Positions 1,149 to 31,587 of a stretch of 64,000 nucleotides of DNA are shown piece after piece; within the stretch, counting starts at the first letter, position 1; each line of letters starts with the position of its first letter. Origin of the DNA: Sphingobium sp. (GTDB taxonomy: Bacteria > Pseudomonadota > Alphaproteobacteria > Sphingomonadales > Sphingomonadaceae); the NCBI GenBank assembly GCA_020446425.1, contig JAGRES010000008.1, positions 217,897-281,896 of the forward strand, read 5' to 3'. Below the pieces are notes generated by a model. The model ran no database searches and was not told where the DNA came from. It saw nothing but the letters and a program-made list of their open reading frames with translations. A program made the position numbers and the translations under genes.

Positions 1149-1163
1149 GAACAAATATAGAAC
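1149..1163 (-). promoter_or_regulatory. LexA-type SOS box upstream of radA
   Basis: The plus strand reads GAACAAATATAGAAC, a perfect GAAC-N7-GAAC direct repeat (GTTC-N7-GTTC on the radA strand), which is the known alphaproteobacterial LexA operator pattern. It ends 14 bp before the radA ATG. Its spacer reads TATATT on the minus strand, a plausible -10 hexamer, so bound LexA would cover the promoter. A nearly identical box lies at 30499-30513. Binding is inferred, not shown. Confidence 0.75.
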
Positions 1164-29580: not shown

Positions 29581-30342
29581 TCAGGCTTCGGCGGCGACGG
29601 CTTCCTCGGCGGGCGGCTCATCCATCGCACCGACATCGACACCGGCAGCAGCCTGTGCATCGTTGCCGCCACGGGTCGCGGCCTGGGCGATGGCGTCGCA
29701 ATACAGGCGGATCGCGCGGCTAGCGTCGTCATTGGCCGGAACCGGGAACGCGATGCCGCTCGGGTCAACGTTCGAATCGAGGATCGCAACGACCGGAATA
29801 CCCAGAACATTGGCTTCCTTGATCGCCAGCTCTTCCTTGTTCGCGTCGATCACGAACATCACGTCGGGAATGCCGCCCATGTCGCGGATGCCGCCAAGGC
29901 TGAGCTCCAGTTTGTCGCGCTCACGCGTCATCTGCAGCACTTCCTTCTTGGTGAGGCCGTGCGTGTCACCCGACAGGCGCTCTTCCAGAGTCTTGAGGCG
30001 CTTAATCGACTGCGAAATGGTCTTCCAGTTGGTGAGCATGCCGCCCAGCCAGCGGTGGTTGACGAAATGCTGGCCCGAACGGCGCGCCGCATCAGCAATC
30101 GGTTCCTGCGCCTGGCGCTTGGTACCGACGAACAGCACTTTGCCGCCGGCGGCGACGGTGGCCGAGACGAATTCCAGAGCACGCGCGAACAGCGGCACGG
30201 ACTGGCTGAGGTCAAGGATGTGAACGCCGTTCCGCTGCCCGAAGATATAGGGCTTCATGCGGGGGTTCCAGCGGTGGGTCTGGTGGCCGAAATGCGCGCC
30301 GGCCTCAATCAATTGCTGCATGGTGACGACAGGTGCCGCCAT
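29581..30342 (-). CDS. rpsB: 30S ribosomal protein uS2
   Basis: This 253-aa uS2 of the small ribosomal subunit shows [45 protein letters not shown] and [13 protein letters not shown] strong GGAAGGAGAAAG ribosome binding site precedes the ATG. The C-terminal tail is Ala/Glu-rich. It heads the translation and envelope gene cluster on the minus strand. Confidence 0.96.
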
Positions 30343-30478: not shown

Positions 30479-30484
30479 TTGACA
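30479..30484 (+). promoter_or_regulatory. Consensus -35 hexamer of the small membrane protein gene
   Basis: TTGACA is an exact sigma-70 -35 hexamer. The -10 region at the usual 17-base spacing would fall at about 30502-30507, within the LexA-type box. The -10 itself is a weak match. Confidence 0.55.
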
Positions 30485-30498
30485 TGCGGATAAAATTA

Positions 30499-30513
30499 GA
30501 ACAAATAGAGAAC
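30499..30513 (+). promoter_or_regulatory. LexA-type SOS box upstream of a small membrane protein
   Basis: GAACAAATAGAGAAC is a perfect GAAC-N7-GAAC repeat and differs by one base from the box at radA (1149-1163). It follows a TTGACA -35 by 14 bases and so would overlap the -10 region, the arrangement expected for repression by LexA. The controlled gene should be the ORF at 30585. The minus-strand rpsB start is 157 bp away with the box far upstream. Confidence 0.75.
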
Positions 30514-30584
30514 ATGGAAACAAAACAGCGGTAGGTCGTTATCGGGATATTAGGCCCGCCGCCTGGAATTTGGAAGGAAAAACG

Positions 30585-30812
30585 ATGGTTGCGATACTGA
30601 CTGCAGCGCTGTTTTCTGTGGCACTAGTCGTGGCGATATTGTCGATAGCCTGGATGCTGTACAGCGACGGCCACAAAATGATCGCAGCCCTGCGATTGGA
30701 ACATCGGATAGCGGCACCTTCCCCTGCCCCGCATAAAGCCTTTCGCCGCACGCCTTATACTCACGGAGCTGTATCGCGTCCTCGCCCAGCCCAAGCGTTG
30801 CGCGCGGCCTGA
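30585..30812 (+). CDS. Small single-helix membrane protein, probably LexA-regulated
   Basis: A 75-aa protein beginning MVAILTAALFSVALVVAILS. It has one membrane helix at about residues 3-25, then a polar tail rich in Arg, His, Pro and Ala without cysteines. The basic tail suggests an N-out, C-in orientation. AAGGAA at 30574-30579 fixes the ATG at 30585. A consensus -35 and a LexA-type box lie 72-106 bp upstream. I do not recognise a family. Small LexA-controlled inner-membrane proteins that stop division are known in Caulobacter (SidA, DidA), so a DNA-damage division inhibitor is one reasonable hypothesis. Confidence 0.65.
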   Translation: MVAILTAALFSVALVVAILSIAWMLYSDGHKMIAALRLEHRIAAPSPAPHKAFRRTPYTHGAVSRPRPAQALRAA

Positions 30813-30822
30813 CCTTACAGTG

Positions 30823-31587
30823 TCAGGCAGCGGCAATGCGTGCCTTACGATAGCTCATCATGCCGAAAGGTATCAGGACCACATAGAATGCCGATATCGC
30901 CAATAGAGTGAGCCAGGGAATGGTGAGCAACATGGCGGCAAGCAGACCCGCCACCGCAATAGCCTCCAGCCTGACCGAGCGGCGAATACGCAAGGCCCGC
31001 CAGCTATAGGTGGCAATATTGGAAATCATCAGGAACGCGACGAAAGCTGTCCAGGGCGCCACCACATACCATTCGCGGAATATCGGCTGATCGGTGACGA
31101 ACCAGCAATAGAGCGGCACGAAGGCCAGCCCCGCTCCCGTGGGCGCCGGAACGCCGGTCAGGAAACCTGCAGATTTGTGCGGCTGGTCATCGGTGTCGAT
31201 CTGGGCGTTGAACCGCGCGAGCCGCAATGCGCACATCAGCGCATGAGCCAGTGCAATCACCCATCCGAATTTAGGCATATATTGCAGCGACCAGAGGTAG
31301 AGGATCAGCGCCGGAGCCACACCAAAGGCGATATTGTCCGACAGCGAGTCCAGTTCCGCCCCGAAGCGGCTTTCCCCTTTCAGCATGCGGGCGATACGGC
31401 CATCCAGCCCATCGAGCACCCCGGCCAGAATGACGCACCCGACCGCCATTTCCCATACGCCTGTCAGAGCGTAGCGCACACCGGTCAGGCCAAAGCACAA
31501 AGCCATGGCCGTCACGGCATTGGGTGCAATCTGCCGTATTGAAATTCCCCTGCGCAGCCTGCGCGGTATCGTGCGGCGGCGTCTCAC
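30823..31587 (-). CDS. pssA: CDP-diacylglycerol--serine O-phosphatidyltransferase
   Basis: This 254-aa membrane enzyme makes phosphatidylserine from CDP-diacylglycerol and serine. The CDP-alcohol phosphatidyltransferase motif D-G-x2-D-G-R-x-A-R-x8-G-x3-D-x3-D is complete in [10 protein letters not shown] through [10 protein letters not shown]. About seven hydrophobic segments follow. It starts inside the psd stop (ATGA), so both enzymes of phosphatidylethanolamine synthesis are coupled. Confidence 0.95.

Follow-up and report, generated by a model that had tools for sequence, protein, structure and literature searches.

A LexA operator linked to a small membrane protein gene across Sphingomonadaceae: a candidate SOS-induced inhibitor of division

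Known inhibitors of division and the Sphingobium locus

Small membrane-bound division inhibitors of the SOS response are described from many bacteria (PMC6051672). The primary SOS-induced division inhibitor of Caulobacter crescentus, SidA, is described as a small inner-membrane protein of 29 residues which acts on FtsW and makes two-hybrid contacts with FtsW and FtsN; the same account presents DidA as an SOS-independent inhibitor of Caulobacter in the DNA-damage response, with 71 residues and one predicted transmembrane helix, and SulA as acting on FtsZ (PMC4211646). YneA of Bacillus subtilis is reported to interact with FtsW (PMC13396833). Here we analyse a stretch of 64,000 nucleotides from Sphingobium sp. 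(contig JAGRES010000008.1; hereafter the window), in which an open reading frame (ORF) of 75 residues, P0001, with one predicted membrane helix stands behind a LexA-type operator. The original prediction, made from the sequence of the window, had proposed a LexA-controlled small membrane protein that might block division, and had named SidA and DidA as LexA-controlled precedents; the precedent stands for SidA and falls for DidA, going by the description in PMC4211646.

The elements of the locus lie on the forward strand. A -35 element, TTGACA (30479-30484), is followed by the LexA operator GAACAAATAGAGAAC (GAAC-N7-GAAC; 30499-30513), which overlaps the -10 position, by a ribosome-binding site, AAGGAA (30574-30579), and by the ORF (30585-30812), which runs from an ATG at 30585 to a TGA at 30810-30812 and whose product we assign to an undescribed small membrane protein family. 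On re-reading of the sequence the positions first given for these four elements proved correct, as did the placing of the box over the expected -10; the -10 itself is weak (CAAATA, 30502-30507, 17 bases past TTGACA and within the operator overlap). An in-frame TTG at 30570 would extend the product to 80 residues, and the homologues favour the ATG as the start.

Linkage of operator and reading frame in Sphingomonadaceae

By itself the pattern GAAC-N7-GAAC says little. Two instances occur in the window against a mean of 1.29 after shuffling, with two or more in 41 of 100 shuffles, and the whole source genome (2.73 Mb in 36 contigs) holds 26 on the forward and 35 on the reverse strand as against 25 and 30 for the reversed pattern (61 vs 55). 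The bare pattern is thus no more frequent than chance in the window, nor clearly so genome-wide, and the claim therefore had to rest on conservation, which does raise the box above chance in related genomes.

The neighbouring gene rpsB, for ribosomal protein S2 (29581-30342, reverse strand; NCBIfam TIGR01011, Pfam PF00318), is divergent from the ORF and served as the anchor of a synteny scan over 69 genomes, including our own, and 19 more, giving 88 Sphingomonadaceae genomes from 44 genera (genus labels assigned by hand). The first 69 were chosen mostly for highest RpsB similarity, so that the sample leans to near relatives, and the 19 additions came from lower down the list. A perfect box was found in bases 60-500 before rpsB in 54 of the first 69 genomes, where ten control patterns altered in spacing, order or orientation gave 0-7; in bases 60-900 the motif was found in 75 of 88, with nine control patterns at 0-9 of 88, and in an overlapping named set in 74 of 79, with six controls at 1-4. 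Box and one-helix ORF together stand upstream of rpsB in 74 of the 88 genomes and 38 of the 44 genera, three loci being left out of the count (L094, fetched from the wrong flank of rpsB; L165, at a contig end with 90 bases; L237, with 172 bases upstream). Neither the box nor such an ORF was seen in about 1.1 kb beside rpsB (one stretch being shorter) in 20 genomes from six other families of the order.

Fourteen genomes lacked the combination of box and ORF in the fetched stretch. Eight of these were searched again with a family profile, and six gave family-like matches (E 3e-11 to 0.008; those in G050 and G127 weak). Five of the homologues (those of G215, G155, G087, G137 and G127) are 1.2-4.8 kb away from rpsB, each with a perfect box 46-180 bases ahead of the matched start; that of G050 is about 0.4 Mb away and has two one-mismatch boxes. 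As the box still precedes the displaced ORFs, it travels with the ORF and not with rpsB. The other six (G391, G144, G335, G068, G001 and G266) keep the ORF beside rpsB with no perfect box before it. Overall the gene is present in 86 of 88 genomes and accompanied by a perfect box in 79 (74 beside rpsB and five displaced). The original prediction had staked itself in part on finding ORF and box in related genomes, and this family-wide linkage supports its central claim of a LexA-controlled small membrane protein.

Two arrangements may be singled out. In G068 (L099) the only perfect box lies behind the ORF, about 813 bases before rpsB, and in Sphingobium sp. SYK-6 and a close relative (L236, L067, L068) the ORF is kept with two nearby boxes of one mismatch each, so that LexA control of the ORF may be weaker there.

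The promoter faces the ORF. Of the TTGAC instances ahead of 95 distinct boxes, 57 begin 9-12 bases upstream of the box, 13 begin 20 bases upstream, the class to which the window belongs, and 14 stand at other distances; no reverse-oriented TTGAC occurs in the 30 bases beyond any of the 95. Many family members carry two or more boxes; at seven loci (L116, L126, L167, L221, L227, L244 and L252) two to four perfect boxes stand 17-67 bases apart before the ORF, which suggests that in some genera repression is cooperative or tighter.

Whether the motif is the operator was considered from the rest of the regulon, by inspection of 50 of the 61 boxes of our own genome (those in fetched loci). Perfect boxes precede lexA (recognised by Peptidase_S24 and LexA_DNA_bind), recA, radA, uvrA and uvrD, as well as a Y-family polymerase, a radical-SAM gene, rmuC and an FRG-domain gene. 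The radA operator GAACAAATATAGAAC (1149-1163, forward strand; RadA identified by NCBIfam TIGR00416) is one base off GAACAAATAGAGAAC, as the prediction had said. A perfect box was also found 28-50 bases ahead of the LexA domain match in 12 of 12 Sphingomonadaceae genomes, picked so as to include some without the box or without the gene; the match starts 3-4 residues into the model. The consensus reported for Caulobacter LexA, GTTC-N7-GTTC, is the same motif (PMC4211646), and anoxia is reported to raise lexA, recA and radA together in Sphingopyxis granuli (PMC6472365). As far as sequence tells, GAAC-N7-GAAC is the LexA operator in Sphingomonadaceae, and with such an operator at its promoter the ORF is almost certainly under LexA control. 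In our judgement no other site among the 50 inspected has a convincing small membrane ORF behind it.

Some further observations concern the regulon at large. Upstream of lexA the perfect box has a one-mismatch companion 11 bases away in 10 of the 12 genomes (L290-L301), G335 has two perfect boxes 11 apart and G040 has no partner at that spacing; the lexA operator of the family may consist of three consecutive half-sites. In our own genome a perfect box GAACATGAATAGAAC lies 115 bases ahead of the FRG-domain gene (L015, G000:C5:79915-79929; PF08867), a possible additional SOS member, and another, GAACATTTCAAGAAC, lies 58 bases ahead of an ORF (L046, G000:C17:984-998) that carries an integrase arm-DNA-binding domain (PF13356) and also matches tyrosine recombinases weakly, which hints at a mobile element linked to SOS. 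An AT-rich perfect box (L004, G000:C2:115213-115227) stands 17 bases ahead of a 268-residue ORF that had no Pfam match at 1e-5. Within the window, the radA operator has radA on one side and on the other an IS1595-family transposase ORF in divergent orientation (1226-2119; NCBIfam NF033547, Pfam PF12762), which starts 77 bases from the start of the box, so that the insertion sequence adjoins LexA control.

On its other side the ORF is met by a convergent gene for a pssA-like CDP-alcohol phosphatidyltransferase (30823-31587, reverse strand), which passes the cut-off of Pfam PF01066 and scores 98.5 bits with the NCBIfam pssA model, slightly below the cut-off of 107. C-termini resembling its product were noticed by eye in several upstream regions of relatives. 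The ORF unit thus runs opposite to both flanking genes.

A one-helix protein with a conserved Ala-Ala end

The product begins with a single hydrophobic helix at about residues 2-25 (30588-30659, forward strand; hydropathy 2.80 over 19 residues), so that, as far as hydropathy shows, it shares with the small SOS-induced division inhibitors of the SidA and YneA kind the possession of one predicted membrane helix. It is followed by a basic, proline-rich tail (30660-30797, forward strand), predicted to be cytoplasmic by the positive-inside rule. Both features, first read from the window copy, were seen again in 74 homologues, whose tails have a mean net charge of +6.5 against about 0 ahead of the helix and contain no second hydrophobic stretch above 1.4. 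Location in the inner membrane is accordingly predicted, and highly probable. The homologues have 52-111 residues (median 79). In an alignment of 50 rows (A1), made from 62 ORFs after removal first of L080, L111, L118, L120 and L131 and also of L068, L075, L081, L099, L106, L116 and L126, the start Met is invariant, Phe10 is kept in at least 90 % of members and the final alanines are nearly invariant.

Purifying selection is seen in all 28 pairs of relatives compared, with ratios of nonsynonymous to synonymous substitution rates (dN/dS) of 0.15-0.52; the pairs have at least 50 % identity and share sequences among them, several have dS above 1, and the window copy, too diverged, is in none. These ratios indicate that the family is translated.

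The last four residues, Leu-Arg-Ala-Ala (30798-30809, forward strand), form a degron-like end shared with the homologues. Ala-Ala ends 58 of the 62 ORFs picked by hydropathy (two of the picks, L080 and L111, being doubtful) and Ala-Ala-Ala 43 of them, whereas, as background, the Ala-Ala end was seen in 2 of the window's 48 long ORFs and, over the fetched loci, in 18 of 249. Other ways of choosing the ORF gave 66 of 75 and 70 of 74, fractions that lean high because these choosers prefer Ala-Ala ends and, for the latter, boxed ORFs also. All four alanine codons are used for the last two positions (GCC 75, GCT 28, GCG 9, GCA 4), which points to selection on the peptide. CtrA of Caulobacter, for which the protease is ClpXP, is reported to be stabilised when its C-terminal alanines are replaced by aspartates or its last three residues are deleted (PMC4433202); only the last residues are comparable, CtrA being a regulator and the ORF product a small membrane protein. 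That the Ala-Ala end is a degron has, in our estimate, an even chance.

Similarity searches recover little of this family. A single-sequence scan of the genome contigs gave no match, and of 397 family genomes searched with a single sequence 13 matched at E of 0.01 or less. Besides our own genome only three of these (G303, G352 and G238) were convincing, in having both a family-like ORF and a perfect box; the protein changes too fast for such a search to find more. Synteny, operator and profile together recover the gene in 86 of 88 genomes where three homologues in 397 had been visible. When 385 genomes from the class were searched with the profile, 27 matched, five of which belong to the family. 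The remaining 22 matches (E 6e-4 to 0.01), with no perfect box within 400 bases before them and many resembling by eye one adenylosuccinate-lyase-like enzyme, were rejected. Since the profile is weak, the absence outside the family holds for the stretches beside rpsB in the 20 genomes of the other families. Weak matches of single members (best Pfam E 0.013, NCBIfam 0.0046, PHROGs 5.7e-4) and the sole PDB sequence match, PscE (E 0.017, positions 1-34), were not considered credible. No description of the gene was found among the literature matches listed, which is no proof of absence, regulon databases being outside the scope.

The prediction had also remarked that the window has no obvious SulA, a statement that could be extended to the whole genome and 30 further ones. 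No SulA (Pfam PF03846) was detected in 31 genomes (our own, 18 congeneric ones and 12 that belong to other families of the order), the model being positive only in Escherichia coli among 14 control genomes. P0001 itself has no SulA match.

Proposed role, alternatives and relation to known systems

We propose that LexA bound at 30499-30513 would repress the promoter of the 75-residue membrane protein, and that RecA-driven cleavage of LexA after DNA damage would release it. The N-terminal helix would then insert in the inner membrane with the basic tail in the cytoplasm, and the protein would most likely delay division through the late divisome (FtsW, FtsI or FtsN), in the manner of SidA, until repair is done. 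The exposed Ala-Ala end may finally lead to removal by an AAA+ protease, ClpXP as a first guess, and the block would be lifted. Taken whole, the reading as an SOS-induced inner-membrane checkpoint protein, SidA-like and perhaps cleared through its Ala-Ala end, is one that we hold with the balance tilted modestly towards it, and the division block, argued by analogy, is by itself also somewhat favoured.

Several findings weigh against it. The ORF lacks a perfect box before it in 7 of the 88 genomes, five of which have one-mismatch boxes (G391, G144, G335, G001 and G050) and two none (G068 and G266), and no homologue was detected in two more (G072 and G040) though lexA is present there. The predicted topology has charge as its sole basis, with a weak signal near the helix, the first 20 residues after it being more positive than the N-terminal side in only 43 of 74 homologues. 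Mean column identity is 26 %, and such fast divergence would suit other membrane targets too. Pfam and NCBIfam offer no credible match to the family, which is thus not linked by kinship to any known division inhibitor.

The best surviving alternative is an SOS-induced membrane protein with another target, which would slow respiration, envelope synthesis or transport, or shield the membrane, and would leave the divisome alone. What the sequence shows is a LexA operator and one helix, the divisome link being argued from precedent, and the neighbouring gene at 30823-31587 is of a phospholipid-synthesis type. However, the small SOS membrane inhibitors described elsewhere delay division (PMC6051672; SidA, PMC4211646; YneA, PMC13396833), and the search of 31 genomes gave no SulA that could take this role; we consider another target unlikely, while giving it more weight than any other alternative.

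TisB is a very short, depolarising, SOS-linked peptide with an antisense RNA, and a pore-forming or depolarising peptide of this type, favouring dormancy after damage, would equally present a short hydrophobic helix behind a LexA operator. The length of the homologues and their long basic tail do not fit so short a peptide, nor does the one usual chromosomal place throughout Sphingomonadaceae, and this alternative appears rather improbable.

The box might instead serve rpsB, with LexA tuning S2 and the ORF as a bystander, since most of the 69 genomes have it roughly 100-330 bases ahead of rpsB. This is very improbable, as the box precedes the ORF even at 1.2-4.8 kb from rpsB, no reverse TTGAC follows it within 30 bases, and rpsB stands without such a box in the 20 genomes of the other families. 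A chance box before a spurious ORF, for which the chance-level frequency of the bare pattern could be cited, we regard as already refuted by the conservation of box, ORF, helix, Phe10 and Ala-Ala end over 38 genera and by a dN/dS below 0.55 in all 28 pairs.

Division arrest after DNA damage in alphaproteobacteria outside Caulobacter is, to our knowledge, largely open. The SOS checkpoint reading gives one precise candidate gene with its operator and likely clearance signal in nearly every Sphingomonadaceae genome examined, and a good candidate for the missing SOS division brake of sphingomonads during DNA repair. More tentatively, and with the chances a little below even, it may be a family-specific checkpoint outside all models searched, usually beside rpsB and fast-evolving, in which helix, Phe10 and Ala-Ala degron are kept as parts of a self-timed SOS brake.

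Among known systems SulA of E. coli would be likewise an SOS-induced division inhibitor in place and timing, its target being FtsZ. YneA and SosA of Staphylococcus aureus are similar in being SOS-induced division inhibitors, but are Gram-positive and, compared through models and descriptions, have no matching Pfam or NCBIfam model here. DidA is close in size (71 vs 75 residues) and also has one predicted helix; it is SOS-independent, whereas the gene of the window has a conserved LexA operator and a tail predicted to be cytoplasmic. SidA, compared by its description, is a small inner-membrane protein of an alphaproteobacterium whose LexA consensus is the same motif. Its division block is experimental while that by the ORF product is one that we infer, and it has 29 residues, as against the 75 here (52-111 in the family), where the basic tail is long and the Ala-Ala end conserved. 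If the reading is true, the protein would act in a SidA-like manner, with size and tail setting the gene apart from SidA.
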